This document shows positions 446 to 25,007 of a DNA stretch of 64,000 bases, in pieces. Position 1 is the stretch's first letter; each line of letters opens with the position of its first letter. The DNA is taken from positions 124,001 through 188,000 of the forward strand of contig NC_018386.1 in NCBI RefSeq assembly GCF_000208865.1, in the 5' to 3' direction. The stretch comes from Neospora caninum Liverpool (lineage: Eukaryota > Apicomplexa > Conoidasida > Eucoccidiorida > Sarcocystidae). The notes beneath the pieces are model-generated. The model was not told the DNA's origin, searched no databases, and saw nothing but the letters and a program-made list of their open reading frames with translations. Position numbers and translations under genes: made by a program.

Positions 446-3400
446 GAGTGAACGCTGCGGTGGAGTGCCCGGCTGGAACTGTGGGGTCGGGGACACAAGG
501 CCCCCATGTCTCAGCGTGCCTCGAGTGTCCTCCCGGCTCGTACTGTGAAGCCTCCGGCCTGTAAGTTGTCCCTATCTTGTCTGCGGCGTCCTTCGTCCAC
601 TGTCCCTTCCTTTCACGAAGGCACGGCGCCCGATCAGAGAAAAGGGGGGAATCGCAGGATCCAGTCCGAGCACGCGCGGACTGCCTCGATGTGACGGAAA
701 CCGTCCGATTTTCGATTCGGTCGTTCTTTCCTTGCCTTGCGCTCAATTCATTTCCTTTCTGTCCGCGTGGGCGAAGGGGTTCCGTCTGTCGGCTTCAGCA
801 CAGCACGCCAGAATCCCCCACAAAAACAAATCTGTGGATTCATGCCGAGCGGTTTTCGGTGGTCAATCGATTTTTGGTTGTAGCAGTGGGTTGCGTCTCT
901 AACGTAGGTTACCGAGTGTGGACACACATCACATGATGACTGTCGGTCTAGAAGTTGACAGGCGTGCATACTTCTCAGCTGTGAACGTTACGATTGCTAG
1001 TCCTAAACCCCCACAAAACGGAGGCAAGACTCAGTCGTTCCAGAGAGGAGATTCAGAAGCATCGTCGTCTCGCGTCGTCGGTGGCTTCTCTCTCCACGGG
1101 CGTTTTTCCCGCTTCATTCGTTTCCTGCTCCCGTCACTGTTCTCGACTCCCCTCCCTTTCCATGTGTTTTTCCGCCGCTTCTTTCCGCCTGGTTCCCGAA
1201 CCCTCATTCTGTCGCTCCTCGAACCCTCATCGTTTCCGTGAAGCGTTTTTTTGTGTTTCTTTCCTCCTCGCCGCGACCTCGCGCCTGTCTCCTCAGAGCT
1301 GCGCCGACGAACGCGTGCCCCGAAGGCACATACTGCCCAGGCGGGGTTGTCTCCGAGAGCGACGCGACTGCCTGTCCAGAAGGCTTCTACTGTCCTGCCG
1401 GCAGCGCCGTCCCTTTCGCGTGTAAACAAGGCCAGTACTGCGAAGGCCCGAGCCTCGCGCAGCCCACAGGGGGATGCAAACCCGCAACGTATTGCCCGGT
1501 CGGGACGACCGCGGCGGCAGGCGTCGCGTGCCCCAGAGGCAGCTACTGTCCGGGGGACACGGACCCTCTTCCCTGTCCCCCGGGGACGTACGGCGACGCA
1601 GAAAGTCTCAGCGCCGAGGACCAGTGCACACCCTGTCCCGCTGGATCGTAAGTTCGAACGGAGGAAACGACGAGGCGGTGGATGGGCAGAAAACGTTCGC
1701 GGACTCCGCGAGAGAAGGACACACACTCTTCAGCACTGCCGCTGCTTTTGGGACTTTGACGCGTCCGCCTCGACGTGTGGGGGCGGGCGACACTTCCAAG
1801 CACATGTAAGGGAACGACTTGGCATCCTTCGCGCTGGCCTCTCGGAGCTGCTCCGGGGAGTAGATCCATATCGCTCGAATAGATAAGGGCGCATGCATGC
1901 ACCCGTGCAGAAAGAAAGATGTGCATGAGGTTGTGGACGTGGACGTGTCTTGCCGAACCCCAACGGGTTTCCTGAAATCTCTTCCCCATTTCACAACGCG
2001 GATCTGCTGGGACTTCGTGACGGTCAGGCTGAACGCTTCGACGGGAGACCTCGTGTCCAAAGTCGCGCCCGGAGCAAGGACGTGGCCTTCACACACACAT
2101 CTACGTAGAGAGCGATTTGCATGTTCTCCAGATACTCCCCACGTCTCTCGAAACGCGTTCTGTCACCAGCTTGCGCGTAGTGCAGAGCCGCCCTCACTGC
2201 GTCCCGCTTCAGAAGACAGCAGCTCTGTTTTCCGTGTCTCTCGCAGATACTGCTCGTCGCCAGGACTTGTGGAGCCCAGCGGGCTTTGCGCCGGGGGGTA
2301 CTTTTGCGCAGAAGGGACAGCTGACGCGCGCCCCGCTAACGGACTCTGTCCCCCCGGGCACAAGTGTCCCCCGGGTGCGGAAGGCCCCCAGGCGTGCCCG
2401 ATCAACGCGTGGCAGCCGCTGCACGGGCAAACCGAATGTCAGCCGTGCCCGGCAGGATTTCTCTGCGAAAATCACGGGGCGCGGCCGTGTGACGAGGTAG
2501 GTGGACCCTCGGCGCGAAACGCAGCTGCCTGGACGAGCGCGAACCGACTGAACGAACACCGAGGCGTGTGGCGGCCACCCGGTGGAGTGGCCCCGCTCTC
2601 CCGCGATGGCCCGCCGGACGCGCTGTCGCACGGTCAGTCACTCCATCAGAGCTCTGACGAAGAGAGTCTGCCGGGTTCCACGACAGTTTAGGGCCGCGTG
2701 CACCGGCGCGCTTCGGTTCGCGGGGAAGAGAGGGGTGGTTCGAACTGTCCCTGGAGCGACCGCTCGGTGTCTCTATCGTTCGTTGTCACTTTGAAACGTT
2801 TCGCGCGCGCCTCTCTCACGCCTTCTCCGTGTTCCGACATTCACTCTCTCTATATATCGCTCTATGCACATGCAAATGTAAACTTATGCAATGTATTCAT
2901 GCGTGCGCAAACGTGGCCGCTACGCACAGCTGTGCGCTTGTATCTGTAGCATCCTGCACGCTTAGGAGCGCAGCGTGGCGCCTTCGTGGGATCTCGAGAG
3001 GCGCAGTGGAAACGCCCCTGCGTCGCCCGTCGTCGCGTTGTCTCCGGTGGAGGCCTGGGCTCCCTACTGCCTTGTTTATCCCTGCTCTCGCGTCTCCAGT
3101 GCATGCCTCCGCCGTCCCAGTTCCCGCGCGTTGCGCCTGCATGCGTTTCCAGGGCAGCTACTGCGACGGGGTGGACGGGACGAAGAAAGACTGTCCAGTC
3201 GGCACGTACCAGCCGTTGCCTGGGCAGACCTCGGAGGCGAGCTGTCTTCCCTGCAAGCCTGGATATGTCTGCGACACGTCGCCGCTGGAGCGCCCCACAA
3301 AAAAGTGCCCCGGAGGCTCGTACTGCGGCGGCGCGTCGCAGAAGAAGTGCCCAGCAGGTTTCTACTGCCCCGAAGGAACCGAGCGACCGTTCGCCTGCTC

Positions 3401-3828
3401 GCCTGGGCACTACTGCGAAGGCGACGGTCTCGAGCGCCCCACAGGCCGCTGCGCCGCGGGGCACTACTGCGCGCGAGGAGCGACGGAGCGGCGTCCAACG
3501 GGCGCTCTCGACATCGAGTACTGTTTCACCGCTCTAACTTCCGGGGACTGCCCAGCTGGCTACTACTGTCCGGAAGGCGTCGCCTTCCCTGTCAGATGTC
3601 CACCGGGTAAACAGAGGCAAGCGAGGAGGTCGCGACGAGAACGCGCGCCGCCCCCCCATTCCCAAAATACGCAGCCAGTCGCTCGCCTGCAAACAGATAT
3701 ACCTATGCACATGCACGTCTACTGACAACGTCAATCTTCATAGCTACACATGCAGATACATATTCATCTATATATATATATATATATATACATAGATAGA
3801 TAGATAGATAGATACATACATACATACA

Positions 3829-3860
<32 letters not shown>

Positions 3861-5552
3861 GGTTTGGGCGGAGAGAGATGTAGTTGCCTTCATCAGACGC
3901 GCCTATGAAGGCCCGTGCATCCATGAGAAGCATGTGAGGGCAGGCGGGGCGACTCGTGGCTGGCGTGCGGAGGCGACAGACCGCGCAGGGGTCCGTTTTT
4001 TCTTCACTCTCGGATATTTTCGTTCACCTCCTCAGCCGCCTCGCGCGCATCCCGTCTCGTGAGGGGACCGTTTTTCCTGCTCACGGCGAAGGGGTTTTCG
4101 GCCCCTCAACGGAGAGGCTGTCGCGCCCTGGATTTCCCGCAGGTACCTTTTCGAACGCGCCTGGCCGAGGCGCGCTTTCCGACTGCCAGTCGTGCACGGC
4201 GGGATCCTACTGCGGGGGCTTCGCTCTCACGGCGGTCACTGGGCCGTGCCTAGCTGGCTTCTACTGCCCTGGCGGCCAGCGAGTAAGCGAGAGAGAAGGG
4301 GAAAGAGGCGCTGGACTGCGGCGCACCTGAGGCCGCGCGCGGAGGCGGCGAGCCATTCCTCTACGCAGCTGGCGAATCCCGTTGCGCGGCGCGCCTTGCT
4401 GGGGCACTCCAGACCGAAGCTCTCGTTTTTCTCGCTCTGTCTTGTCTGTGTTGCTGCGCCTGCTCACTTTTTTTCAGACGCCCTATGAGCTCCCCTGTCC
4501 TAAAGGCAGCATGTGTCCAGCAGGCTCCGCAGATGCAACCGAGTGCCCCGAAGGGTGAGACGCGCACTGCGTTGGTCCTTCGCATTTTGTCCAGCGAGTC
4601 CTTGTCCTTACAGTCGTCCGTTTCTTCTCCGTCCTCCTCCCGGTAAAGCTAGTCAAGGCACGGCTACTGCAAGTCGACCATCTCCGGATCCCCGTCGGAG
4701 GTATTTGGTGCTTTCTCAACTCACCTGAGGAAGCGTATTCGCGAGCCAGCAGGGGATGCATCGCTTCTGCAAGTGCACTGTATGAGCGGCTCTGTTAAAG
4801 GCGTGCCCCCACTGAAGAAGCTCTCACTGACTACGCTGACAGTCTCGGATTCTGCGTTTCCTTCAGACAGTACCAACCCGCAGAAGGCAAATCCAAATGC
4901 CTCCCTTGCATTGAAGGTATGCATGCACACCTACGCCCGAGCGCGCCTGACCAGCGATGGGCGCGTTCTCCCTGCAGAGACGAGCACATGAAAAAAGAGC
5001 TGGGTGCGCGTAGGTACACAGATACGAGAGCGAGAAACAATGAAATGGAGGTCGTAGCAGCAAAGCAAGCAGCAAGATATACATACCCGGATGCACCGAG
5101 ACGCCCGCGTATCTATCTGTGTGTGTGTGTCTATATTATGTGTATACTTCTTCGTGACCATGAAAAGATTAGGAGGAGCGTGGAGCTGTATGACGCACGT
5201 CTCGATAGAGCTCAGGGCATTCCATGTCTCTTGTCCACAGACTCCGCGGCAGCACAGCCTCTGCGAAATCACGAGGATCTCCGTTGTTCAAGTCTGCGCG
5301 TGTTTGCGCGTTTCTCCGCTTCAGGTTTCAGGTGCCCTCGAGGCAGCTACGAAGTCCAGTCTTGTGCCGCTGGCCATTTCTGCGCCGACGGCGTCACCGT
5401 CAAGTGCCCCGTCGGCACGCACAGCGCCTCGACGGGAATTTGGAAATCCTCTCAGTGCCGGCCCTGGTGAGTGCGGGGGAAACAAGGCAAAGGAAAAAAG
5501 AGGAAACGAAGGCTGTGCACATGTGACGCCATACAAACGAGTATATACATAC

Positions 5553-5592
<40 letters not shown>

Positions 5593-5677
5593 ATGTATAT
5601 GTATATGTATGTGTATGTGTATGTATATGTATGTGTATGTGTATGTATGTATGCGTAGCGGTGCAGAAAGACATACG

Positions 5678-5708
<31 letters not shown>

Positions 5709-8700
5709 TTCTGAGTGTGTGAAACACGAGAGACACGCCGATCGCGTAGAGTGTCACGTCAGCGGGAGAACGAAAAGCGATGTGCGAGTGCAGACAAGCA
5801 TGCGAGTAGGAACAGGGTCGAGATCGTCTGCCTCTGCAAGCCCGTTCTTTGACTGGCATTCCTTCAGAGCTCAGCGGTCTCACCTTTTGGCTGCCGACGC
5901 CTGCCGGGAAACGTGTCCCCCACGCGCGCGCGAAAAGCGGGAGTGGAACCCCAGCTGGAAGGGCCAACACACATCGGAAAATTGCCTCTGTCGCTTCCCC
6001 ACCTTTCTTTCCCTGTGCCGTTGCGTCAGTCCCCCAGGGAAAGTATGCTCCGCGGACGGGGCTGCGAACGCCGACGCCGCCACGGACTGCCCCGCGGGAC
6101 ACTACTGCCGCCTGGGCGCCTCGACAACCCCCGCCCAAGACCCCACAACCTGCGGGCGAGATCCCACGTCCTGTCTTCCCGGGGCCAAGTGCCCGGCAGG
6201 GTACTACTGCCCCGCCGGGAGTGCGGGGCCGATCCCCTGTCCCCAAGGGACCACGGGATCGCCAGAGGGTTCCACGTCCAAGACGCAGTGCATGAAGTGT
6301 CCCGCAGGCCGCTACTGCAGCGGTGGTGGTGCCTCGGGAGAGTGCGACGCCGGGTTCTTCTGCGTCGCGGGGAGCACGGCGGCGAGGCCGCGTAACGGCC
6401 TGTGCCCCGTGGGAAAGTACTGCGCCCGCGGCTCCGCGGCTGGAACCGACTGTTCGCCGGGGACCTACGCCGACGTCGAGGGCCTCGCGGAGTGCCGCCA
6501 GTGCCCCGCTGGCTTCGTGTGCTCGGGGACAGGCCTGGCCTCGGGGACAGGCGAGCCGTGCCCCGCGGGTCACTTTTGCGTGGAGGGGACACACACTCCC
6601 GCCAAGTGCCCCGTGGGAACCTTCTCGGCCTCGACGCACGCGACAGACGCGTCTTGGTGCCAGCTTTGTCCGCCGGGTCACTTTTGCGACACTGAGGGGC
6701 TCCGAGCTCCTGCCGGCGACTGCCAAGCTGGGTATTTTTGTCTCCAAGGCGCGAGCCAGGCGGACCCGCCGACGCCAGACCCCCCGGGGGCGAATGGGGA
6801 GTGCCCCGTCGGGTTCTACTGCCCCGCGCGCTCCTCGGCGCCCAAGGCGTGCCCGCCGGGAACCTTCAGCGCGACGCCAAAGGCCACGCGGGCCGAGGAC
6901 TGTCAGGAGTGTCCAGAGGGTCAGTTCTGCGGGGTGTATGCGTTGCCGGCCCCGGAGGGCATCTGCGACGACGGGTTCTTCTGCGGGGCTGGGCAGATCT
7001 CTCGCCGACCCCTCGGGACAGGGACAGCTGGCCTCTGTCCGGCTGGCCACGCCTGCAGCGGCGGGGCGAAGGCCCCGTGTCCAGAGCACTCCTACATGGA
7101 CGAGCAGGGGGCGGCGCTCTGCAAGAGTTGCCCCGCGGGGCACTTTTGCGAGGCGCAAGCGCGCGCCCCGCACAGATGCCCCGCGACCTTCTTCTGCGAG
7201 ACGGGGAAGGGGAAGAAGACGTGTCCAGACGGGACGTACTCCGATGCGACGGGTCTCGCGGCTTCGTCCGACTGTCTCGAGTGCCCCACCACGAAGTTCT
7301 GTGCTCACGGAAAGATCCAGGCTTCCTGTAGCGCAGGCTTCATCTGCGTGCTCGGGGTGGGACCGACGGGCGCGCCGGCAGGCGCCTCATCCGACGGCGC
7401 TCCGCCCCATCACGCCGTGCAGCTCGGCGAACCTTGTCCCCGCGGGGCCTACTGCCCCGCGGGGACCGACGCGCCCCTCCGGTGCCCTCCAGGGACCACC
7501 ACGGCCTCCACGGGCGCCGCCTCCGTCGCGGACTGCGTCGGGTGCAAAGCGGGCTTTTACTGCGCGACGGTCAACACTGCGGCGACGGCGTGTCCTCGAG
7601 GCTACTACTGTCCGGCGGAGTCCCGTGAGCCGCGCCCGTGTCCCGAAGGCACGTACAACCCCAACGCCTACGCCGAGTCCGTGGCCAGCTGCATGCAGTG
7701 CGACGCCGGATTCCTCTGCCCCGAAGGCAGCGACAAGCAACGAACCGCCTGTCCCCTCGGGTTCTACTGCGAAGGCGGCAGTGCCCCCAAGGTGGCCTGC
7801 CCGGAAGGGACTTACGGGAAAACCACGGGAACGTCGAAGGAGGAGGACGCCTGTGGAACGTGTCCGGCCGGTGGGCACAAAAAGGACTGACCCGAGGAGA
7901 GAGCTGTCCACAATGCACAGATCTGTTCACGCACTCCTGTTTCTTTCCCACACACAACGCATCGGCACATCACCCTTCCCATGCGGACACATATCCATAT
8001 ATCCATATATACCTATAGGTATGCATATACGTAAGCATATATGTATGCATATACGTATATGCATATATGCATACATATATGCATGCATATATGTGTATAT
8101 AGGTATGCGAATAATGCCGTAGGTCACTACATCTAGGTCCGGACACATGTCACGTGTTCGGCGCAGGTCAATGGGGAGAAGACACTCGAGCATGCGCCGG
8201 ACGTTGTGTCCTGACCAGGAGGGTCTCGTGGCCTCCAAGTTCAGAACTGGCCAGTGTCCTCAACTGCAACTCTTGCCGCCACTCAGTGTGCAGAGACAGT
8301 CTCGTGCGACTCGACGTGCACTGTGCGCTGAACGGGCACGCCTGTATATACACCTGTGCAGACGTACGGATCGGTGTCGGTGTTGCACGCGTCGCCGAGT
8401 CGCCTGTTCACTGCAGTGTTTTTTTTAGCGGACTGGCGTTTGGTGTGTGTTTGCAGGTTATTACTGTCCGGGCGCGGACCACCCGTACGAGCCGTGCCCC
8501 GCAGGAAAATTCTGCACTTCGAATTCGCCCGCGCCCTTGGCCTGCACTCCCGGTTTCTACTGTCCCGGGGCCACCAGCGCGCCGGTCGTCTGTCCCCTAG
8601 GTTTCTACTGTCCTCCGGAGACTGCTCTTCCCCTCGAGTGCCCCGATGGGTCTCTCTGCCCCCGAGGCGCTGCGCAGCCTCAGGCCTGTCCGGCGGGGAC

Positions 8701-11700
8701 GCGCTCTCGGGGCCCTCAGGCGTGCGCGGCAATCCCCACAGTCGACGGCTGCTGCGAAGCTTGTCCCGCGGTAAGGCGCTCAAACTGCGGCCAAAACGAC
8801 CGATCCCAGAGGGCGTGGGGGGAGGGGGAAACGCGGGAGTGCACCAATGGGCCATACGCGCTGTCGTAAATAGGCACGCAGATGTGAACGGTAAAAAGAC
8901 GCGTAGGTGCGCTCTCTTGATCGACGCACCCGTATCTGGAAGCTCTGTAAAATCGCAGCTGCGCCGTGGCTTGTGTGCGTGCGTGTGCGTGCGTGTGTGT
9001 GCGTGCGTGTGCGTGCGTGTGTGTGCGTGTGTGTGCTTGAGCACGGGCGAGTCACCTTTCACGTCGGTCTCTCATGGGGCCCGAACGCCACTCGGCTTCG
9101 TGTCTCCCACGAATCTTTCCGACCGGGGTGGTGGTTGGGTTGTGGCGTCGTGTCGCGTTCACCCGGTCGCGTTCTTGGCCACACTTTTCCGCTCCACTCA
9201 ACATCTTCGTTCCGTGCAGTCTCGACTGTCTCGCAGGTCCGTGCCTCCCCCTGCGCTCTGCGCTCTCTCTTGCCTTGTCCATGGCTGCATCCTGCGCGCT
9301 TCTCTCCTTTGCTCGTTTCGGCCTCTTGCCCACACTCTCCGCTGTGCATCACGCTTCGCCCCCGCTGTCGTTCTGCCGCGTCCTCGCGCCCTGTGTCTCC
9401 TAGGGAACCTTTTCTTCCGGGGCAGGCTCGGTCGAGTGCCAGCCGTGTGCCGCGGGGTTCGTCTGCACGGGCGGGGCTGCGACGCCCGAGCCGACGGACC
9501 GGGTGCACGGCTACATCTGTCCCCGCGGGGCGTTCTGCCCCGCGGGGGCTCTCGCCCCAGTCCCCTGTCCCGCGGGACGCTTCAACGCAGAGGAAGGCGC
9601 CGAAGACGCACAGACGGGCTGCCTGCCCTGCCCCGCGGGAACCTTCTCCGACGCGCTTGGCGCGACCGCGTGCTCGACCTGCGGGGGTACGTCCACCTCG
9701 CTGGAGGGTCAGCAGACGTGCGAGTGCGTCGGCGTCGGCCGCACCTTCCAGAAGGAAGACGGCACCTGCGTGTGTCGGAACTTTTACGAGTTTTACAGCT
9801 CCACGCGACTCGCGCCGGGCGACGAGAGCGCGGACTCGGCGCTGGACTGCCAACCTGTCGCGCAGCCCAGATGCGAAAGCGCCTCCAGCGCGAAGAACCC
9901 GCGACTCGCCAGAGACGCCGGGAGTCGCCTCCTGCGAGCTGCGGACGGCGCGTGTGTCGCGCCCGAGACGATCTGCGAGACTCAGTGCGGCGACGTGGGC
10001 GGCATCTTCTTGGCCCACGTGGGCATGTGTCAGTGCCTCTCTGTGCGGGACGCGGGACAGAAACCGTGCGACCGGGCATGCAGGTGAGCCTCGGAAGGCG
10101 GAAAACCTAGCACACACCGGGGAGACACAACACGAGGGACGAAGCGCGAGGGGAAAGCCCACAGCGGACACCGAGAGAAAAAACACACGGGAAGGCTTGG
10201 CACCACGGTCTGGGCTCGAATGGAAAGGTGGAGGGCCGACCGAGATGGGCACAGGCCGTCGAGATGAGAACGTTGCGCGAGCTTTGGATGCAGCTAAGAT
10301 ACTTGATCGCCTCGGTGGCGTGGAATTCGACAGAATCCCTGTCTCGTCACTCTTCCTCCATGTTCACAAAAATCTGTATCGAAAGTGCCTCTCTACCGAA
10401 CTCTCTATATGTAACTATGTGCATGCAGTTTTCGTCTCGTCTTTGTGCCTTTTCTCGAGGGACACAGACGCGCCAGCCGTCTGCCCCCAACAGGCGTTCA
10501 CTGTGTAGGTGACCGAACCTTCCTATTTGCTCCGCCACAATCACCTGTGCATCTGTAGATGCTCGTGTGCAGATGGGCCTCTATGCATTTTCGTATGCCT
10601 ATCCTTTTTGCACGAACCGAAAAGTATGTAGGAGTCTCTTTTTGTACATGTACGTACATTTCTATCCCTTTTTCCACCTGCGTCTCTCTGGCGTTGTGCG
10701 TTTGCGTCAGGAGTCGAGTGGCGACGTTGGTGCTCGAAGGGGACGCCTTTGCGTGCAAGCTCCCTGCCTCAGAAGCGACGCAAAAGAAATCCGTGCAGTC
10801 GCTGATTGACAACAGCCTGTTGAAGGGGTCAGTTGCATGCGGCAGCGACATGGAGACGCTGGATGGGCAGCCGCACGTCTGTCGCACGTCGTTTTACCTG
10901 CTCAATTCGACAGGCGTGTTCGGGACTGTCGGAGTTCCGGCAGGTACGAAAGCAAGGCAGGCCTCCGTCCACTCTTTGTGTTCAAGGCCTGCGTGAGAAC
11001 AGCGCCTCACGAGTCGACGGTGCCACGAGGCCGGGAAGCTCGGCCGCGATGGGAGTTGCCCAGCCACGCAGTCGCAAGGGGAAGGCACGAACCAGTCCAG
11101 AAAACGCACGAGAAACGCCTGCCACGCCCGGCGCACGCCTATCCATATGCGCCCAGATAAGTCCTAAAGGCGCGCCTACGTGGGCACCGACAGCGGCGCG
11201 CAAATACGCATATCCCTATAGCTACACATCCAGAGACAACCAAGTTCCTTCTGACTGCAGTACACCACCACCCCTCTGGACGGCTATACAAAGGTATAGG
11301 TGCTCGCGTAGTCGTCCGCACATCTGTTTTGCTTCCTATCTGTTCCAGATCTTGGGATGATGCTTTAGCGTCCTCGCACTGTGAACACCACGTTTTCGTA
11401 GGTTTCCAGAAGCTTTTGGCGACAGATCCGCAGGGCTCTGCGTCGGAGGGAACGTCGGACTCGCGAGCCGGCGTGGCGCATGCAGACGCCGCGGCTCCAA
11501 ACGACGCCGCTGGACCCAAAGCGCGGTGTCCTGCCCCCGCTCCCGGCGCGTCTCCCCTTGTGGACCGCCGGAGAAACGCCTGCGCGGCGGAGACGCTGCC
11601 AGCGTCGTCGGAGCTGGAAACTGAGCTGTATGGTCAGGACAGCAGCAACGAAATGGCCGTGATTCGCAACCCCACACAGTGTCTCCAAAAAGGAGACACC

Positions 11701-14700
11701 ATCATTTGGATGATTGCTGGGGCGTTTCCCGTCTATCTCCGCAATTCGCTTCTCAACACAGCGGCCGGCTTCGACGCGAGTCCGTATCTGAATGTGCAAG
11801 GCGACCTCGCGTACGAGGGAACCGACGCAAAGCCGCCTGTAACGGTAAGGAGCGAAAGCGTTCGACAGCGCAGGTTCGCGATCGGTTCGTTGTCGCGTTA
11901 CTCGCGAAGGCACCTGTTTGGACGACGCGGCAACGATGAAGGCGTGGGGAAAGGCAGGCTCCCCTTCAGGAATCGACGACATGGCGGTCCCAGGAGGCGC
12001 AAAAGTGTCTGTGTTAACACACAGGACGACCCGCATGTTGCCGCGCACCTTTCGGCACCAAAGTTCACGGGGAGATGTTTCGCGTGGCTTGGTTCCGACC
12101 CAGACCAATGCCCAAAAATCCTGCACTGCGTTCCATCCTTCACTTCATGGAAATACGTGTGCATCAATAGGAATAATGACTGTTTACCTGCATACATATA
12201 CATGTGTATATGGGTATAGGGTGTTCACGTGCATGGGTGTATATATATCCGGATATATGCTAAATGCGTATTATTAGGTATGTGGCGCTGACGTGGCTAG
12301 ACACGTGTTTATATAGCGTTCATCTGTGACTCTATACGCATCTGATGCATGCATATCTACTCTTGTGTTTTGATGTGTCTCCATATTCGTCTGTTCTTTT
12401 GTGCTTACTCGACTTTCGCCCACTCACAAATTCCCATTCGAGTTTCTGTGTTTCGCTGTTTCGCGCTTGCCAGTATTTTGCATTTTCCTTCACCGTTCCC
12501 GGACAGTATGTGTTTGCGACAAACGTGAGCGACGCCCACCAAGCGATCTTTCGCGTCCTCGACGAGGGTGTCTCCTGCGACGAAGATGCAAGGTAAGGAG
12601 AAGCTACGTGGGCATGCACGCGCCTTAGAGGCGATGCTGCGTCTGTTCCGGTTTCAGAAGTTCAACGCTCGACTGTAGGACAGAACGCGTTGACGGTTCC
12701 TTCTCCCTCCAGTGGGTAGGCGGGAGACTGGACCTCTTGGGTCCTCCCTTGCGCGTGGCCTTTGCAGCACGAAAGTCCTGACCCAGCTCCCAGACGCGGC
12801 GTTTTGTTGCTCTCCTCCCCAGTGCTCTCCTTGCTGGCGTGATGGCTTTCTCGTCGCCGCTGTTGCACTGTCTGTCCCGAGATTGCGCCCCGGTGCCCTC
12901 GTGCTGGATGTTTCCCTCTCTGCGCCGTTCTCACACGCTCTGGGGCGCTCACGTCTTTCTCACACGCTCTGGGGCGCTCACGTCTTTCCCCCCCACACGT
13001 GGCTTCTTGGCAGCCCTCTCTCTCTCGCCCGCTGCCCGGCGCAGGTTTCCCCTCCCCACCGAGTTCTCCTCCCTGGCTGCGGCGGGAGTCCAGATGCGCG
13101 CCGACGTTCTCCTCGAGCCCGAGTTGGCGACTGTAGAACTGCTCTTTCTCGGCGCTCTGGGAATTCTGTGGGCGTTCGTGCTCATCGTGTCTTGGCTGCG
13201 GAAGCAGCGGTTCCAGAAGGAGCAAGCGACCGGGGTCTCCGAGAACCGTCGAGCCCGCAGCCCCGCCCACGCGTTCGGCGTGCATGCGGTCGCGCACCAG
13301 ACGCGAACGGAAATCGAAAATTTACTCAGTCACGTCATCGAGTCTGGAAAGGACGTCGACGCTCTCGCGAGGGTCACGCGCCTCTCTCCGGAGGAACTGG
13401 AAGGTTTCTTGGCCGCCTACCAGGCACCAGGCGAAGCGTCAAACGCTCCCACGAACCCCGTCGATCTGCGGAGGTTCGAGGCAGCCTACACCCAACTCGC
13501 CCGCGCACACGTCACTCTCGGAAAGTACTTCCGACAGAGGAAGTGGGACGCGGCCCAGCTCGGCGTCGAGCAGCTGAAGACACTCGACGGCCTCCAAAAC
13601 TTCGTCGCGCCAATCATCCGGAAAGTCGACTGGAAACTCGACGTACGGAAACGCCCCTCCAAACCCTGCACGATGCACCACACACAGACAGGAAAACCCG
13701 AATTCCTCGCATTTGTGCCTACCGGCATACATACATACATACATACATACATGCATACGTACATACATACATACGTACATACATACATACATACGTACAT
13801 ACATACCTACGTACATACATACCTACGTACATACATACGTACATGCGTGTACACGGAAGAGAAGAAATATGCATGTATACGTTTTGCTACTTGGCGTAGT
13901 GGTTCCGGCTCGGTGTCCCTCGTTTAGCGCAGCATGCAAACGGATGAGGGAGGAACCACGATGCTTGACCCTTGTGGTCTCAGCCTCTCAACCAACCACA
14001 GTGCATGGATGGGGCGGCGCGCACAGAGATCTCTGCACTCTTTGGCTTCCAACGCGTATGACCTGTACGCCATCCCACCTGTAAATAAGCTAAATATGTG
14101 CGTATGTATAGAGATACAGCTATACGTGTGTGCATATATTTGTGTACGCGGCGAAGATGGAGACGCGAGTCTGCGTTTCTGTTTCGGCGTTCGCGCAGGA
14201 GAGCAGCGCGCTTCAGAAGACGATCTTGGCGATGACGAAGGCCTGCGAGAGACTGGTGGACGAGTTACGAGCGCCTCACGCCTTCTTCGGTGCTGGGTCT
14301 CTGGACGAGTCTTCCGCCGCGTCGCCTCGTCTTGAGCGGTTCAGTCTCCCTGCAGTTTCGTCTTCTCTGGAGAAAGGTGGAAAGAAGGCAGTGCTCTTGA
14401 CTCTGGCGGAAGAGGTGTCCACTGTGGTGTGCATGACCCGTGGCGAGAGCCAGGCGCTGCCCGTTTTGGCGCAGTATTTGGACGTCTTGCGTGAGGGCCT
14501 TGACGACCAGGACGCGACCCCGTTCGCCTCGTCTGCGCTTTCGAGCTTCGTCCAGAGCTCGGCGGGCAGCCTGGAAGGAGCTCTGGAGAAGGTTCTGCAA
14601 CACCAAGAGCGCGGCATGGGTCTCGAAGACCAGCTCGCCCACAGGCCGTTCGCCGACGCCGTCGGCCGTGCACGCGTTTCCGACAGGTGTGAGCGCGAAC

Positions 14701-16889
14701 TCGTCACCCGTCTCCTGGACGCTGTCGAAGATCTTCTCGCAAGTGCAGTGCAGCAGCTGACTGCGCCGGACGAACCGCGGGGAACGCAGCGCGTCTCGTG
14801 CGTCCGGGAACGCGAAGGCGGCGACGGACGAGACTCCGCAGAGCGCGTGCTCGCGGGGGCGGAGCGCCCGGGTGAAGACGAGGGAGCGCCAGAAGAGGCA
14901 GGAAACGGCGGCGGAGAGAAGAAGCGCGAAAAGAAAACAAGGCTGGTCCCTGGAGCTGGCGGCGGAAGTGCACGCACCTCGGCCGACCCCGTGGCTGCCC
15001 TACAGGATGCAATTCGTACGTCGCTTCCGAGATCTGCGAACCCGCAAAAGAAGAAGCTGCGAGGAACGCGAAACGTGACGGAGGCTCGCAGAGAGGCATC
15101 CACGAACCAGTGCGGCTCGCCAGGAGGCCGAGCAGAAAACACCGCGAACGCAGCAGCTGCGCGGTCGCCGTCCTGCCGCAGTAACCTGTGCATTTCTGCA
15201 TGAATCGACCGGTCTCGAGTCACGTCTGTAGACATGTGCATCTGTGCAGAGCCTCTCCTGCAGCGACCTTTATTTAGGCTCAGCAAGTCTTCGTGCGAGT
15301 TTGCGTCGTCGCGCAGACGGAGTGGACGCGCCGCTCGCGCCTTTGCCTGTCATTTCTGCTTGCGGGCTTCTCCAGAGACTCTCTGTAACCGGCATTTCGA
15401 CGAACTTAGTCGAACGCTGTCGGCGCATCAACAAGCCTACTCAGCTGCGTTGGACAAGCGGGAGTCGGCGAAAATGCACCAGACTGAAGAACGACAGAAT
15501 ATTGAGAAGTTGCTCCTCTCCCAGTTCCTTCAGTTCTTCAAGGCGACCGAGACGCAGAGAATCGCGCAGTTCTACGAGGTAAAGTCTCGAAGCGGTTTCC
15601 AACCGTCTTCGCGCCTGCAATCCAGCCCTCCGCCTCCCACTCCGCCCGTCTCGACTCCGCACTAGCCGCCGTCCTGTGCACTCCCTTCCGCCTCGAAACG
15701 GACCCTGTCTACGTAAATGTGCAGCTGTTAACATCCACATCTTTGTCCAACAAACTATTCACATACTGCACATATATCTATATATATATAGATATAGATA
15801 TATAGATGTATAGGTGTGTAGATGTAGATATGGATATAGATATGCGGGGGGAAACGTTTATTGGCGTGTGGCTTCGCCCTCGTCTGCTCTTTGTCGTGTT
15901 TCTCCGTCAGCGCCTGGAAACCTCTCGCATTTCCAAGCTGCGAGAAGGTCTGAGGGAGGAGCTGTACGAACTGGAGCGGTCGCGAAGGAGAGAAGATTGG
16001 GCGCCCTCGGACTTCGAGGAAAAGAAGAAGAAGGCCTTGCAGCGGTTCGAGGCGCGCGTCAAAGCAGGAACGGAGGAACTCAAGAGGGACAAAGACAGTC
16101 TACTTGTGGCTACACTGGACGCGATCGACAGCCAGCAGGAAAAGCGGTAAGCAGATCCTCGCTAAACGAAACGCCAGTCGCAGGAAGCAAACGAAAGCAC
16201 CAGACGAAAAGCGAGCGATGGAGACATTAGGCGCACTCGAAACGCGAGAGAAAAACACGTCCGTCGACCCATCCTGAACGCAGATACACCTCAACCGTGT
16301 CGCGGCCCGCCAGCGCAAAGCGGAATGTGAAGCCTCGACACTGGAGGTGTTTTAGAAGGCTGAAGACGCTCGCCGAACGCCGAAACCTCATCCGAGATGG
16401 AGACGCCAGAACGCCGCTGCCCACGTTGTGGCTTTTTAAACTATTTCGTCTCTCGTCGGCGGCATGCAGCGACGTCCTGGCTTGCCACTCCTCTCTCGCC
16501 TTTGTCCACTCAGAAACGCGGCTCTTGAAGCCCTGCATGCAGCGGAAATCGCTTTGGTCAAGGCGAAGGCCGCGAACGCGAGAGAGCTCGCAGACAAAAT
16601 ATTTGAGCAGCAGGAGGAGAGAGTCCAAAAAGACCTTGAAGGACGTCGAGCGAGGTTTCTGCTCGTCGCCCAAAACATCGGCCGCCTCCATGACAGGTGA
16701 GAACTCGAAGTGTCTGTTTCCTCACCTTTCGATGAACCGTTCCACAAAGACGTCGCCATATCTCTAGGCACACCTGCCGAGATAGAGCGGCACATGCAGC
16801 TCTAGTGCATGCATCTCGCTCCGCATATAACTACATATATATATATATATATGTAGATGTATGTAGATGTATGTATACGTACATATATA

Positions 16890-16927
<38 letters not shown>

Positions 16928-19900
16928 TGGCTTCGTAGAAGACGTGTGAGCATTGGAGGCGTGTGAAGTCTCAGATGTTTGTCGCGTGGGGTCTCTCGCT
17001 GGCCAGCAGTTCTGGGCTTTGCCCTGCGCCGCGTTTCTGCGTTTTTCTTTTGCAGGATTGTCGGAGGGGAAGTCGTCCCAACAGCGCATCTGGTGAGCGC
17101 GCGAGCAGGCGCGAAGCCGCTGCTCGGCCGACCTCCGCGCGCTGAGAAGTCGCGGGCGCCTTGCACATCCGTTCTCATTTCCTGTGAGTGTGGACGCCCT
17201 CTCGCTGCTTTCCGCTCCAGGCTGACTCTATAGAAGATGCTTCGGGAGCGCTGGAAGACCTGCGTCGCGGCCAAGACAACGAGCGACGCGCGTGGCTTTC
17301 TGCGCAGCGCGACACGCGAGACGCGATTTTGAAGAGGCGAAAAGAAGCCATCCAGGCCAAGGCCACAGACCTGAAGAGCGTCACGCGGCAGTACACAGTG
17401 CAGGAAACCGGCTTATATGCGGAGCTCTTCAGCCAAGAAGAAGACGCGCTGCTGCCCTACGGGGCGCGGGCGACTGCAGAGAGAGTCGACGCCGTGTTCG
17501 CCACGCAGCTGAGGCAACACCAGAAAGCCTACCGCGCCGTCTTTGAGGAGGCCGACGACTTCCCGCTCGCGGCGGGAGGGTCGGCGGGCGAAGCTAGCGA
17601 GGCAGTGCAGAAGGCGAAGGCACACCGACTGCGACTTGAGGAGGCAGACCGGCAGCGTTTCGACCTCAAGGAAGAAGAGAAGGAGAAACAAATCCAGGCG
17701 ATCGAGGCGCGACTCGCTGAGATTCGCGATAACCGCAACGAAGCTCTCAGGTGTATCGCCGATCTGGAAGTTGAAGTCACCGAACGGTACCTCATCAAAG
17801 TGCGTGGAAGCGAACAAGAGCTTTTCTTCGGATACACCAAAGAGAGAGAACGAGCGCGTGTTGTCAGGCGTCTCTAGACTTGCGTGTGTCGACCCATCCT
17901 CTGTGGGGCTCGGGACCTCTGTACATCCGCCTGCGCTCCTCACCGTTTCGTCCCTCTCGTCTTCTTCGCGCTCGACGTCTCCGGCACTCTCCACCTTGCA
18001 TGCGTTCTTGAAAAGGCAGGCGCCTGCACAGATACACCTTGCAGCCAAGGAGACCAGGGCGAAGACAGCCTCGTGGAGACACTTCTGCAAACCACTCAGC
18101 AGATGCAAAACGTGAAGGCTAAGCACTCAGGACGGTATACACGTATATGCTACATATACACGTGCACGTGTGAGGCTCTGTTGACTCGTGGAGACACACG
18201 ACCATATCCACATTTAAGAGCAGAAAAATTCGCACACCCAGCTGCATCGATATGTGTGCTGCTGAACATGGACAGCCCTATTTATGGGTAGCCCTATACA
18301 TGGATAGAGTCGTATACATGGATAGAGTCATACGTGGGTAGCCCTATACATGGGTAGAGTCGTATGCACGCGTATGCGTAAAGGCAGCTGAAGATCTTTC
18401 CGGCAAGGCTCGTGTTCCAGCGTAGTCTAGCTCTGGCGTTTTCGTTCGCGTCTCGGACGGTTGTGCCTCTCCACTTGGTTTGCAGGCCTCCGACGGTTCT
18501 GGGAGGCTCATGGAGGATGAGGCTTTCGAAGATTCTGCGACCATCGCAGCAGAAGCCAAGCGTCTCAGCCAGTGAGAAACCGTTCTCGCCTTTTGCGCCA
18601 CGTCGTCGGGGCATCTTTGCAGCTTTCTGCGCATTTCCACGATATGCGCGTTCTTGGTCTCCCCGCCTAGACGTCTAGCGCCTACCACATACCTGGTCGC
18701 GCTAAGAGATGCACTGGCTGCAAGTGGAAAGCGGCGTCTGTTGATGCTTGCAAAGGACTGACTCCCTTTCAATAGACACCCGCGTATCGAGTCCGCAGCC
18801 AGAGTGTGTTGAGCGCGCTCCTTCTGGACAGTGCTTCGCCAAGAGCGAGCGAACCCGCTGCTGCGTCCACTCGGGAGGAAGGAGTTCGAGCCTGCGCGTT
18901 TTCAGCAGTGTCCTCGCATATGGATACGCACCTGGAGAGAGGCCGATGTGCGGCACTATACTCTCAGGGTAGCGGGTTTCTGTATCTCTCTCTGTGTAGG
19001 GGTATATAAACGAGAAGAAATGATGTATTTTTTCTCTAGGTTCGGGCTGAAGGCGCCTGGGGAACGCTTGTCTCGGAAAAGGCGCTTTTTGTTTTCAGGC
19101 TGCAAAAGAACATTTTAGAGTTCGCCAAGAAGCAGCTGGTCGCCGCGCGGAATGCAGGAAAACCGCGAGGAAAAAACTCCCATCTGCCTCCGTTAGGCGG
19201 CTGGGCCAAGGAGGCCAAGCGGCTGCTTCAAATCGCGGACGAAGACCGCCAGGAGATTCGGGTTCGTTTCGGGCTTCCGACAACCACGCGCCTTTCGAAA
19301 GGTTTCTCTGGCTCTAAGGAGGCGGAAAACACACTTTTCGCGCGTTCGAGGGTTTGTCGTCTGTGTAGAAAACGACTGTGGCAGTATTGCCGTCTCCCGT
19401 GTCTCGCTGGATACGTTCGAGGGCGTGGCTATACCTCCCGTGAGGGAGGGGCGTGATCCCTCCTCACTTTCGTCCACTGTCGTTCATCTCCTTGTCGTTT
19501 CCTGCTTGCCAGGTGAGCCCCGTCTGCTGCGTGGCTCCCTGCGAGTCGCCTTCTTCGTTTCCCATCTCGGCATCGTCTTGGGGCGGCTCTGGACGGGAAC
19601 AGGCATTGGGAGTCTCTCGCGGCGCGCAGAACTCTGCCTCTCCACGTTCTTTTCCTGGTTGCATGCGCTTTTCTTTCGTGATTGACTTCCTCGTCCCCTG
19701 TCTCCTTTTCTTCTTCTGCGTCACTGGCTTCCTTCAGGCAGACTACGAGAAGAAATTGAAGCAGCGAAGCCGCGCCGAGAACAGCGCCGCCTCGACTGCT
19801 CCGTCGCCGACTGCTTGGGGCTCCGAGGACACTGACAAAATTGTGAATGCCCTCCTGCTCAAAATCCGTGAAAAGCGCCAAGAAGTCCGCAATTCCCTCT

Positions 19901-22900
19901 TCTTCCTAGACGACATTGTCGACGTGATTTGCGATGCCAAGCTGTCAACAAGTGAAAGTGTGCAGATCGACGCCCTATATGACAGGGCGACACGCGAAGT
20001 AGAAGAAGAATTCGAAAGGTAATACTCCGTCTAAAAAGCAGGGGTCTATGGACTCAACTGTGTCTGCACATCTGTATCTACAGATCTGCGTAACTTTACG
20101 CACATTATGCATGTATATCTGCGTATATGTACACACATTTATGTACACATACCTCCAGATGCATCCTCGGTTGCTGGAACGCCCCGCGCGTGTCTGCGCC
20201 GAGTTCGTCCAAGAGCCGCAGGGCGCACTGTGTTGTCGTAAGCATGGAAGGCCATGTCGCTTCCGATACACGCGGAAATACGTAGGACTCTGTGCATGCA
20301 CGTTTGTGCCACAGTGTCTCTGGGTGGGAATGTGGTGTAGCCTTCCCGCGTTTCTCCTCCCCGTTGGGGTGCGGTTTCCAGAGAGATGAAGCAGCTGCAA
20401 GAGGAGTTCGAATCCGACGCGCGACGGCTCGAGGCTGAGCTGGCCGAGGAGCGGTCGCGCATTGGACGAACGGAGGAGATGGAGCGGAGCCGGCTGGAAG
20501 TCGAGCGGCGACTCAAGAAGGCGACAGCGACTTCTGATGAGGAGATAGAGGCCGTCCGGCGCGACTTCGACGAGAGAATTGACAGGGTTCAGAGGGAGTT
20601 TGAGAGCGAGAGAGAGGCGCAAGAGCGGGCCTTCCAGGAGAAACTGGCGCGGCGGCGAGAACTGTTCAACAGACGGAAACAGAAGCTCGCCGAGAAGGCG
20701 CAGGCAGAAGAAGCGCGGGTTCAAGAAGATCGCCGGAGAAAAAAGACCGTGGCCGAGAGACAGAGAAGCGAAGCGACCTTCGAGTGCCTCCTCGACGAAG
20801 CGAGGTCGCATCCGACCAGCGACACGATAGAGCAGTACGCTTCCTGCACTCCGCAGATCCCTATGAACACGTAGAGGCATTCCTGTAAAGAGCTCGTGAC
20901 GACTCCAGAACGCGTCGACCTCTGTGAAGATACGTGGCCGCGAGACGCGCGCCTCCTTGCGATTCGTGCGTGCCCGAGTCGCTGCATGCAGAGGCGTGCT
21001 TCGGCGATATGCCCCGCTCTCGAGAGTCGGAGCCTCTCCGCACCTGTTCGTTCACAGCCGCTTTCAACCGGTCTTCGACTGACCTAGACTGTTGTCCTCC
21101 TGCCCTCGTACCGTCTCTCCTCGCTCGGTACAAGTCACTGCTCTCGCTCCCCAGCGGTTCCTCGTTGGGTTCTCTTCTCTCTCCTCTCTCTCTCTGCGGT
21201 TGCCCCTCGCTATCGGCCACCGAGAGCGCGCTTCAACTCGAGACGCTCTTCGTTCGCGTCTGCGCACTTTTTTCCTATCGTCTTTCCTCTGTTCGCCTGC
21301 GCTCCTCCTTGACTTGTCTCTCTCTTCCAAAGGCTGCACAAATTCATGGCCGCGCAACTCAGCGAGGCCGTCAACGCCACGGTGTTGCAACAACTCTCAG
21401 AGAAATCTTCGCGACTCACGGCGGTGGCCGCGGAGATGCGCAGCAAACATGCAGACGAACGCAGTGCGACGGAGGCGAAGCTCGACCGGTAGGCGGCGCA
21501 CCCGCCGCACCTGTCCCAAATCGGGGAGGTTGGAGGCGCGCGCTCTTCAGTTTCCCTGGTCCTGCGCGGTCCCACCCTGTCTGGTTTTCGCCTTCTGCAT
21601 CGGCCGCAGCCCGGTTTGCGGTCTCTCGAGCGCTCTAGAGAGAATTCCTTTTCCCTACGTCGGAAGGCGCTGCGTTGGCGGAGTTCGATTCACGGGAGGG
21701 GCGCAGAGAGCGTAACTGAGGAGGAACGGCAACTAAGCCGGCTCGGCCAAGCATTTTGAATTGGATGGTCTTGGCGCGTCACTCCCTTCGTCTGCATGCT
21801 GTGCTCTGGCCCGTGTGTCGCCTCCTGTCCTCTGCCTTTCTAGCCAAATCGCCGCTGCGGAGAAGATGGCCTCGGCGTCCGACGCGAGCTCCCCGCACCT
21901 TTTGGAAGAAATCGAGGACCTGAAGCGGATGAAGGAAGAGAAGCTGCGCGAACTGGACGCGACTTTCAAGCTCAAAGTCGACTCGGCCTTGCAGATCGAG
22001 CGCCTTGCCATTGAACCAGTGCAAGCAGAGCGCGTCTTCGCCCTTCAACAAGAACACCTAAAAAACATCGTCAAGGTCCTCAGCGAGTTCGTCGCCCTAG
22101 GCGAGGAGACAGCTGTGGGCTTGACCCAGCAGGCTAAGCAGGTCAGCGCGTGTGCCGTGGAGCGACAGCAGCGAAGCAGCCAAGCGAGACTCTCGGGGGG
22201 GGGCCGCCGGCTCACGAAACGAAGCGAGACGGAAAGGCGAAAACCGATTCACGGCGGCTGGAAAAAGTCCGAGAGGCGCGCGTGGCCAACACGGAATCTC
22301 GGACGCCTTGAGGTCTTTCTGACGCGCGTGGAACGGATCTCCGCAGATCGGGGGTCGGGGTGGGACGCGAAGAAAGTGAGAACTTGAGTTGCCATAGCAA
22401 GCAACAGAGGGAAGACCCGTTTTTTGTGCCCAGCGCCGAGAAGGGAAGTGTGTTTCAAAAACAAGGGGCGTCTAGCCGGGAAGTGTCAGCCTCTAAAAAC
22501 ATAACCTGGAGCACGGTTCCGATTGCGGCGCACATGCGCGCGGCGAGCTCTCCCACGTTTGAGCGCGTGCGCGTCTCGGGTGAGGTCATGCTTTTTTGTT
22601 CGCGGCGGTTTCTTTCGTTTTTGCTGGGCAGGCTCAGACGCGCATCGAGCTGGAAAGAGCGCGGATGAAAGAAATTGCCGGCATGAAGGTTCTGGACCTG
22701 GACAAGATCTTAAAGGAGAAAGAAGCCGAGCTGAAGAAGCAAATGGAGGCGAACATCGCGGCGTTGCGGGAAAAGTTGAAGGCGCAACAGGAGCGAGAAG
22801 AACAGCTGCAGAGAGAGGCGCACGAAGCGGAAATGAAGAAGCGGAAGGAGGAACAACGCGCTCGACAGCTGAAACAGCTGCGGCGCATGATCAACTGCGC

Positions 22901-25007
22901 AAAGGCAGACGACCCAGAGGCTGCCGATGACATCTTCAAAAAGTACCAGGATGACGCAGAGCGCCTCGAGGCTGCACTGGCGAAGGAGCGAGCGAGACAG
23001 CACATGATTCTGCAGTCGCAGCTTCACCAAAAGGTCAACAGAAAGGAATTGCAGCTCAGACAAGAAGGCGAGGTAGGAGCCGAGACGGACCCGTTCGAGG
23101 CGGCATCTGGCCATGCGCCTTGCATGCTGCTACAGAGCGCTCAGGTCTTTCCACGGCATACCTGCACATCTCTGCATGCGCCTGCATCTAGGCACACGCA
23201 TGCATCTGCGGCTGCACTCGGTTTCACTCGTACACTGAGCGGGGTAAGTGTTTGGGGAAACGAGTGTAGATATACGTCAACGAGTGCCGACGGAACCGCT
23301 CTGCCGCAGACGGCGTGCCCGCGAGTGCTTCGACAAGTCGATAGCTTAGAGACACGTGGAGGGAATCCATGCGTTCGCGCAGTTAGAAAAGGTTTTTGTG
23401 GGTCGTACGGCGCCTCTGAAGCCTGGTGCCTGCCTCGCGCAGGGTCAGATGTCGGAGGAGCGGGCGCGTCTGAAGAAGACGAGGGACTTGGCGGCAGTGA
23501 CACAAGAGACGGGCGACGCGGCCACGGACGCGGAAGAACTCGACGAACAGGAAATGTGGAAGTATTTCTTCACGGTTCGGGTGGCTGAAGAAGTGGCTAA
23601 GAAGGCGAAAAGGATTCAGGAACTCTTGCGCGCCGCTCTTAGACAGCTCACCTCTGGCCCGCCGAAAGAGGAAGGTACTGCGCAACCGCCACCAAACGTC
23701 CACGGAAGGTAGACCAGGTTTCTCAGTGTGTATGACGACGAAACCAATCGATCGCCAAAGTGATATACACGAGCGGGTCTTCCGTATACAAATATACTAC
23801 TCCTGCGCTGAGCGAACAGCCACACTGAAAGGACACAGAGGAAGAGATCTCCGCGACACGATCTCAATCGGACTCAAGGCCACACATGAGTGACAACGTA
23901 AATACAGGTTTGCCTGCATGCGGTGTGGAGACGGAAGAACAGCGACGGCTTTGCATGACTAAACGTATGGGTGCTTGCTCAACCAAGCTCTATCCGCGCG
24001 TGCGCGCACAGATGCGTGCCTGAAGAGGGAGCAGCCGATCTAGATACGCGGAACGGGATTTGCAGCGCCTGACTGCCTGGCCCCAGGAATGGGTATGGCA
24101 TCGCACAGGTGTCTCTCCTTATACAAACACGCGTACATTCTGGATATAAACGTGCTCTCTTTTGCTCGACGTTCAGTGTACATCCAAGGTCTATTTGATT
24201 GCTCTGCATGTTTTTGCTTCCCGTGTATCCATTGGTTTGTGGGGTTTTGGGTTCTCTCCTTCCTTTGTGTCGCTCCCTCGCAACCGCCGGCGATCGTGCA
24301 GGTGAAGAGGTCAAAGCCTTCGCCACTCCGGAGAGTATCGAAAACCTACTTGACAAGGTGAGGCGCCTCCGCCTGTTGCTCTTTTTTCTGATTCCTCTCT
24401 CTAAGTGTAGGTTGCATGAATACGACGAAGTTTGTGTAAACGGGCGCGTGTACGCGAAGATACATCTATCAGCCACATGAGGTCCCCGTGTGTATCTACG
24501 GTATATAAGTATCGAGGAAGAAGACGGTGTCTGGATTCGGTTTCGTACCGACATATGCCGGAGCAGCCGTTGCGTGTAAGATTCAGAGCCTCAGTCCCCC
24601 ATCCGCGTCGTGCATTATCCACAGGGGCACGGGACACTCATAGAGCTGTACGGACACTCTTACCCGGTTTGCTTCTCGCTACACCAAGCTGGGCTTTTCC
24701 AGGAACCGTTTCCCACTGGTTTGTTCATCTGAGGATCTCTGACAAGGTTCCCGTTCGGCTGAATGTTCTCCCGGGTGCGCAGCCTCTAAACTCGCCTTAG
24801 GGCTTCATAGTGCGGCGGTCTAGCTGCCCGGTGTTGCGTACGCGCATCTGAAGCGGTACCCGGCGTACATTGAGCGAGTGAAATCTGAAATGCATGTGTA
24901 GTGTTTTTTTTTTGCTGACTGTGGACCACGTTGTGTGGTTGTCTGTACAGCTTTCGAGATTGACGGAGGCACTCGTAGTCCCCGAGGACGACGAGGACGA
25001 GGAGTGA
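446..25007 (+). CDS. Giant GCC2/GCC3 cysteine-module membrane protein with coiled-coil tail (5' partial)
   Basis: I read one spliced gene of at least 32 exons (10,103 coding nt, about 3,367 codons), open on the left: the first exon (446-560) enters in phase after an intron acceptor and no start codon is visible. The order is about 1,470 residues of CPxG-xxxC modules (GCC2/GCC3, now called ephrin-receptor-like), about 260 residues of other ectodomain, one transmembrane helix, then a long charged coiled coil ending in an acidic PEDDEDEE-stop. All junctions keep frame under GT-AG rules. Two are ambiguous: the exon ending at 17750 or 17799, and the donor at 20804 or 20834. It is likely a surface or secretory-organelle type I membrane protein with a large cytosolic scaffold. 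Coccidian CRMP proteins share the cysteine modules but, as I recall, are multi-pass, so I do not equate them. Function is unknown. Confidence 0.88.
3769..3860. repeat. Compound TA / TAGA / CATA microsatellite
   Basis: A TA run is followed by about five TAGA units and then about thirteen CATA units. It lies in the intron between exons 3153-3606 and 4143-4282 of the GCC2/GCC3 gene. Confidence 0.95.
5541..5706. repeat. TA and TGTA microsatellites
   Basis: Two TA runs flank a TGTA/TATG-rich stretch in the intron between exons 5325-5466 and 6030-7870. Confidence 0.95.
7989..8107. repeat. Degenerate ATATGCATAC-rich stretch
   Basis: Imperfect alternation of CATATA, ATATGCATAC and TATGCATATACG words in the intron following the long exon 6030-7870. 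Self-complementary ATGCAT words recur. Confidence 0.8.
8972..9036. repeat. GTGCGT microsatellite
   Basis: Alternating GTGC/GTGT units lie in the intron between exons 8457-8770 and 9404-10083. This is a potential Z-DNA-type purine-pyrimidine alternation. Confidence 0.9.
10711..12592 (+). other. Juxtamembrane ectodomain with a cupredoxin-like segment (exons 12-14)
   Basis: Exons 10711-10943, 11402-11844 and 12474-12592. The first encodes an unrecognised cysteine-containing domain. The other two give a pattern typical of cupredoxin folds: a strand ending in KGDTIIWMIAG, a variable middle, then YFAFSFTVPGQYVF and a final strand IFRVLDEG. Cupredoxins typically show GD-x-V-x-W and F-T-F-x-x-PG-x-Y-x-F. 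The usual copper ligands (late Cys, His, Met) are absent, so it would be a non-copper structural domain. The fold is inferred from pattern only. Confidence 0.5.
12928..12986. repeat. 29-bp tandem duplication
   Basis: Two adjacent near-identical 29-bp copies of a TTCTCACACGCTCTGG-type unit. They lie in the intron just before the transmembrane exon, in pyrimidine-rich sequence upstream of its acceptor. Confidence 0.85.
13045..13642 (+). other. Transmembrane exon (exon 15)
   Basis: The exon begins extracellular, crosses the membrane with a hydrophobic run of about 22 residues (LLFLGALGILWAFVLIVSWL) and ends it with the stop-transfer charges RKQR. It then enters a cytosolic segment rich in acidic and basic residues. 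With cysteine modules upstream and coiled coil downstream, type I topology is the natural reading. The donor at 13643 is GTACGG. The exon ends in phase 0. Confidence 0.8.
13726..13844. repeat. CATA/CGTA microsatellite
   Basis: CATACATA units interrupted by CGTA and CCTA, directly after the transmembrane exon, in the following intron. Confidence 0.95.
15772..15843. repeat. TATA/GATA-rich microsatellite
   Basis: Short TA and GATATA runs in the intron between exons 15376-15578 and 15911-16146. Confidence 0.85.
16833..16924. repeat. TA microsatellite
   Basis: Two TA runs separated by ATGTAGATGT words, in the intron before the 37-nt exon 17056-17092. Confidence 0.95.
18286..18365. repeat. 50-bp repeat with TACATGGATAGAGT sub-units
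   Basis: A block starting GGGTAGCCCTATACA recurs 50 bp later, and within it an 18-bp TACATGGATAGAGTCGTA-type word is repeated. It is intronic, between exons 18045-18111 and 18486-18571. Confidence 0.8.

Follow-up and report, generated by a model that had tools for sequence, protein, structure and literature searches.

The window analysed here is a 64,000-nucleotide stretch of the Neospora caninum Liverpool genome (57.5 Mb, 14 contigs), bases 124001-188000 of contig C2. Its interval 446-25007 is, judged from the exon structure, the 3' portion of one single gene that encodes an ectodomain, a membrane span and a cytosolic tail. We are nearly certain of the anatomy read from these exons: a stalk of disulphide-rich modules, a conserved domain next to the membrane, a single strong span and a helical tail of 1,575 residues. 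With about even confidence we interpret the product as a very large type I membrane protein, of the CAST multi-domain kind, that would act as a transmembrane linker or contact receptor. Features are listed in Table 1; negative positions lie to the left of the window.

Table 1. Features of the window and loci of the paralogues (k, kilobases on the contig named)
Feature	Position	Strand	Basis or detail
3' part of the gene, exons 21-51 of 51	446..25007	+	P0002 mapping
Ectodomain, CPxG / GCC2-GCC3 (Ephrin_rec_like) module arrays, exons 21-31	446..9700	+	62 CPxG; PF07699
Conserved Cys-rich juxtamembrane linker with EGF-like Cys pairs and GxxRxFQ..GxCxC motif	9700..10945	+	23-member alignment
Juxtamembrane domain, a predicted cupredoxin without copper, exons 11404-11844 and 12474-12593 around intron 11845-12473	11644..12593	+	
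Single strong transmembrane span, then LRKQRF	13130..13195	+	Kyte-Doolittle 2.55; model helix 142-186
Cytosolic tail of 1,575 residues (exons 35-51), amphipathic helix with coiled-coil parts	13196..25004	+	periodicity
Last exon, acidic C-terminus LSRLTEALVVPEDDEDEE and stop	24951..25007	+	P0002 mapping
PP2C phosphatase-match open reading frame	27748-28605	+	1.1e-5
Tubulin GTPase-domain open reading frame	33705-34508	-	PF00091, 2e-13
PF14531 'Kinase-like' open reading frame	36774-38663	+	2.4e-19; weaker Pkinase match
Perfect 78-base tandem duplication, 2 copies	41234-41390		100%
Minisatellite, 11 copies of a 40-base pyrimidine-rich unit	44925-45359		
Paralogue	C2:345-394k		best domain hidden Markov model (HMM) E 5e-18
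Paralogue	C12:4305-4343k		best domain HMM E 3e-18
Paralogue	C4:1158-1200k		best domain HMM E 3e-12

Gene model

A search with one exon returned a sole protein, P0002, at 100% identity; UniRef and nr list it as a 'GCC2 and GCC3 domain-containing protein' of 5,075 residues from N. caninum Liverpool. Mapped on the DNA, P0002 resolves into 51 exons, those in the window agreeing letter for letter, and all 50 junctions are exact GT-AG and in phase. A sequence-only reading of the window had earlier proposed a single phase-consistent frame of 32 exons over 446-25007; the frame and the coordinates hold, but the exons there number 31, and the gene continues for about 16 kb to the left, where exons 1-20 extend to about -15788 (C2:108,212). 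The whole protein exceeds the portion inside the window by half. Its public 5' end is probably incomplete, because the start codon falls within a Cys module and lacks a signal peptide; several relatives start with a hydrophobic leader. No convincing signal-peptide start was found in the 6.4 kb scanned upstream, which gave a single weak candidate at -19798.

Ectodomain and membrane span

The dozens of CPxG modules noted at the outset are borne out by the counts: 99 motifs in the whole ectodomain, 62 of them in the window, and none in the tail, compared with 3.6 on average and never more than 8 in 200 shuffles. Cysteines follow the same division (282 per 3,480 ectodomain residues versus 9 per 1,575 tail residues). 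PF07699 (Ephrin_rec_like) scored above its cut-off in two exons, with 54.2 bits over 6 stretches in 6030-7872 and with 24.9 bits in 9404-10084. The Pfam scan took in 20 of the 51 exons and gave only sub-threshold matches besides Ephrin_rec_like, while the precomputed Pfam list, which covers the whole of P0002, holds PF07699 alone. An exon of the same gene at -9331 to -8711 (L011:669-1289), lying amid the Cys modules, resembles by eye a BNR/sortilin-type beta-propeller, for which Pfam gave no match; the paralogue on C2 has NHL-like exons at C2:362.3-363.0k.

The Cys-rich juxtamembrane linker is common to relatives across eukaryotes (23 aligned members, P0117 only in part). The earlier claim of one transmembrane run followed by RKQR was confirmed: a single strong hydrophobic span was found (P0002 3481-3499, window about 13133-13189), and the only other stretch, at P0002 1043-1061 in the part of the ectodomain left of the window, is marginal (1.76).

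Juxtamembrane domain

Between the linker and the span lies a domain of about 100 residues, for which no curated Pfam or NCBIfam family was found and for which modelling predicts a cupredoxin beta-sandwich fold. Its C21 and C110 are invariant and form a candidate disulphide. At the place equivalent to plastocyanin Cys84, Asp stands in 69 of the approximately 90 rows with a letter and Cys is outside the six commonest letters, with Cys at the next place in 3 rows; this equivalence was judged by eye from plastocyanin numbering. No conserved His or Met follows that place in the same alignment of about 90 rows. Copper binding as a type-1 copper protein was rejected since the conserved His/Cys/His/Met ligands are absent, and the domain would therefore serve in binding or in passing on force, without a redox role. 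Ephrins are not among the matches listed for the cupredoxin model, which carries no evidential weight.

Cytosolic tail

The tail had been described as about 1,400 heptad-rich residues. Helical periodicity does run through it, over 1,575 residues, with hydrophobic signals of 2.72 at a period of 3.6 residues, 1.90 at 3.5 and 1.50 at 4.0; local shuffles gave about 1.0 +/- 0.15, none of the 200 attained any of these three values, and periods 3.0 and 2.0 showed no rise. Strict heptad windows cover only 10% of the tail (2% in shuffles), so the preferred description is a long amphipathic helix that is coiled coil in parts, not a tail that is heptad-rich throughout. Over about 1,500 residues the tail is 60% identical to that of Toxoplasma gondii P0123 and 51% to that of Besnoitia P0124, whose C-terminus is LSRLTEALVVPEDDEEEN. 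phmmer found no match between the window tail and the frames of the paralogues, and the tails of P0002 and Stylonychia P0090 gave no alignment.

Orthologues and paralogues in coccidia

Orthologues occur in Toxoplasma (P0122, P0123) and Besnoitia (P0124). The public T. gondii models are split and one of them extends into an intron, so automatic models here are not reliable: P0122 comprises the Cys modules, the domain, the span and the start of the tail, and P0123 the domain, the span and the whole tail. P0124 runs from the Cys modules through the tail end, with one stretch of the domain absent from the public model. Two protein searches found no full-length Toxoplasma orthologue, and a third, at shorter length, gave the split models.

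Three more N. caninum loci (Table 1) have Cys modules, the domain and a span, followed by tail exons of helical appearance by eye. The exon finder used on the contigs produces spurious tiny exons and overruns gene ends, and for this reason only strong exons were used. By these predicted exons the genome holds at least four genes of this layout; the number is a lower bound because the domain exon has three further weak matches in its own genome, on C14, C10 and C8 (E 0.07-0.54). Two other loci, C9:1770-1784k and C6:597-609k, combine modules with several hydrophobic stretches by eye and resemble CRMPs.

Relatives across eukaryotes

A wide protein search gave 398 matches, of which 120 were listed, with 1,202 candidates scored. 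Its query contained the Cys modules; its matches are therefore mostly module matches and do not amount to a family census. The domain was sought only inside the 120 listed proteins. With the segment of the window protein, phmmer found it in 57 of them, itself included (domain E < 1e-4), and a profile built from those 57 found it in 88, leaving 32 with no match. Named holders among the protists include Bodo, Chilomastix and Kipferlia (metamonads included), the oomycetes Aphanomyces and Plasmopara and the ciliate Stylonychia; among the animals they include Trichoplax, Hydra, amphioxus, tunicates, oyster, fish, frogs, lizards, alligator and birds. Two further rows with the domain are tagged Nk52, which we take to be Chromosphaera.

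The division of the window protein recurs in these relatives. Up to the end of the domain or the span cysteine makes up 8-11% of residues; beyond it the share does not exceed 3.2% in 87 of the 88, the exception being P0081, in which the domain is followed by only 27 residues. A span is absent where expected in P0081 and P0031, P0086 has several hydrophobic stretches, and in P0054, P0099, P0079, P0047 and others a second stretch lies in the tail or close to the domain. Tails measure about 1,000 to 3,650 residues in most protists and invertebrates; shorter ones occur in Plasmopara (750), P0113 (645), Elysia P0031 (718) and several unnamed rows (130-450), and vertebrate tails have about 300-800. 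Vertebrate proteins such as P0073 (Gallus), P0058 (Anolis) and P0056 (Onychostoma) are named zonadhesin or SCO-spondin and have the same Cys-module array, with the juxtamembrane domain and then a single span.

In the tails of 69 of 91 relatives, for example P0020, P0070 and P0033, a C-terminal cytosolic domain is conserved. Three segments of it were scanned with no Pfam family found; modelling predicts a zincin fold, inactive and without the catalytic glutamate. In the coccidia an HMM of this zincin gave no match in P0002, P0123 and P0124 and E 6.8 in P0122, and in translated frames the best values were E 0.096 for the paralogues and 0.72 for the window.

A quick tree of 51 rows clustered two metamonads, Bodo with environmental rows, two oomycetes, and Stylonychia with P0113. 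The animals formed two groups with one Nk52 row in each, as if after an early duplication; the branch of the coccidian pair was long, at 2.24, and of the 48 inner branches 17 are open. The tree is compatible with old, mostly vertical descent, without proving it.

Comparison with known systems

The sequence-only reading knew of no described protein with this layout and took it as the best candidate in the window for an undescribed system. This is not borne out, as the layout appears in a passage of Appendix 5 of Woo et al. 2015 (eLife 4:e06974, PMC4501334) and is therefore a known one. That passage describes a 'CAST multi-domain protein' family with Cys-rich extracellular domains, a single span and a predicted coiled-coil cytoplasmic part, gives Oxytricha, stramenopiles, choanoflagellates, chromerids and coccidians as holders, and reports its absence from Plasmodium, Cryptosporidium, Theileria, Babesia, Tetrahymena and Paramecium. 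The window protein has the Cys-rich ectodomain, the single strong span and the predicted coiled-coil cytoplasmic part. Its segment also matches the juxtamembrane domain of Stylonychia P0090, which bears the name 'cast multi-domain protein' (phmmer E 2e-14). The Appendix 5 section differs in naming no juxtamembrane domain, propeller or coccidian gene.

The GCC2/GCC3 modules had been linked earlier to apicomplexan CRMPs. The module is indeed common to both, and TgCRMPa/b and PCRMP1-4 are likewise large coccidian proteins with Ephrin_rec_like modules. However, T. gondii CRMPs are described in the consulted part of PMC9815656 as having 9 spans and a core with EGF-like domains, in contrast to the one strong span and long helical tail here, and on span number CRMP membership was rejected. 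A further mark of CRMPs is a complex with MIC15/TSP1 together with a role in rhoptry secretion. Eph receptors share the small Cys module; the window protein differs from them in having no ligand-binding, kinase or SAM domain in the exons and the precomputed list covered by Pfam. Ephrins, which a passage of PMC6993872 presents as cupredoxin folds without copper, are alike in the predicted fold. The vertebrate proteins named zonadhesin or SCO-spondin differ in their shorter tails and, in P0073, P0056 and P0110, in a zincin-like domain that the coccidian tail is without.

As far as searched, several points are new: the membership of the window gene, its paralogues, the prediction of a cupredoxin, the broad distribution and the predicted dead zincin of the relatives. 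In the literature covered, the CAST layout appears only as a remark, and the shared membrane-proximal domain, which spans metamonads, Bodo, oomycetes, a ciliate, placozoans and vertebrates, makes the family testable in tractable organisms. Some vertebrate copies are misnamed zonadhesin or SCO-spondin, and the coccidian label 'GCC2 and GCC3 domain-containing' covers two layouts, the many-span CRMPs and the single-span kind.

Possible functions

No function of any family member was found in searches of open-licence papers, by layout and by alternative gene names. The earlier suggestion of a sensor or adhesin coupled to a cytosolic scaffold is a reasonable hypothesis. As a mechanism we propose, at somewhat less than even confidence, that the protein joins outside contact to the cell cortex. 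The stalk, perhaps with a beta-propeller distant from the membrane, would be the recognition or adhesive part, its many small modules giving reach; the predicted copper-less cupredoxin at the membrane would pass ligand binding or tension to the span; and the helical tail would self-associate and anchor or cluster the protein on the cortex or cytoskeleton. The protein may be used at particular life stages. More tentative is a wider proposal, that one receptor/linker system made of stalk, copper-less cupredoxin, span, coiled-coil rod and, at the rod's far end in most lineages, a dead zincin has existed since the last common eukaryotic ancestor, and that the coccidia re-tooled it by losing the zincin and expanding to four genes. 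If true, it would be present in metamonads, Discoba, stramenopiles, alveolates and animals, under wrong names in vertebrates, with the cupredoxin passing ligand binding or tension across the membrane.

That a Cys-rich and a coiled-coil gene adjoin here and were fused wrongly by gene prediction is extremely improbable. The split Toxoplasma models would agree with such an artefact, but the span lies within exon 13045-13642, flanked there by the last part of the ectodomain and by some 150 residues from the start of the tail, and the same order is kept in three genera, four paralogues and distant relatives. The artefact was rejected on this shared exon and conservation, which sustain the original view that both parts belong to one protein, P0002. 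A CRMP-like invasion protein, placed at the apical surface, sensing the host cell and triggering organelle discharge, is very unlikely. CRMPa/b act in rhoptry secretion according to the parts consulted of PMC9815656 and PMC9670195, and the same module model matched the CRMP-like loci on C9 and C6; against this role stand the one strong span instead of 9, the many free-living protists and animals among the named relatives, which do not invade host cells, and the absence of the family from the four apicomplexan genera in the passage of Woo et al. (PMC4501334).

Bodo, Chilomastix, Kipferlia, oomycetes, Stylonychia and animals, all among the named holders, bear cilia or flagella. The 120 listed rows, many of which are nameless and which are not a survey, name neither a fungus nor a land plant. 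A flagellar or basal-body protein, serving the flagellated male gamete in coccidia, is nevertheless quite unlikely. Tetrahymena, Paramecium and Plasmodium also have cilia or flagellated gametes. The case is weakened because the Appendix 5 passage reports the family absent from all three (PMC4501334). Nor was the family seen, by text terms and with no sequence comparison, in an oomycete flagellar gene paper or a zoospore membrane proteome.

Coccidians make cyst or oocyst walls, and a surface protein that ties the cortex to wall or matrix in tissue cysts, sporozoites or oocysts, as slow or environmental stages, is another, unlikely, reading. It agrees with the report of the family in coccidians and not in four other apicomplexan genera (PMC4501334, Appendix 5 passage), and with TGME49_207875, a gene of the same annotation that the consulted part of PMC4177681 gives as detected in chronic mouse infection, with a mean of 0 fragments per kilobase per million (FPKM) in the acute phase. 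That gene may, however, be the orthologue of the paralogue at C2:345-394k instead of the window gene, because of gene order around a tubulin/FtsZ neighbour. TGME49 numbers follow gene order. The tubulin/FtsZ gene TGME49_207600 stands 275 identifier units from TGME49_207875 in the same part of PMC4177681, and the window has a tubulin/FtsZ-type reading frame at 33705-34508. Relatives without walls share the layout as well.

Other features of the window

The best PDB matches of the tubulin-type reading frame are beta- and gamma-tubulins over about 60-70 residues; on these matches the frame is divergent or a single exon. The 'Kinase-like' frame presumably resembles rhoptry kinases. Rfam gave no match in the window. 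The GC and AT skews flip sign strongly between 44-46 and 46-48 kb.
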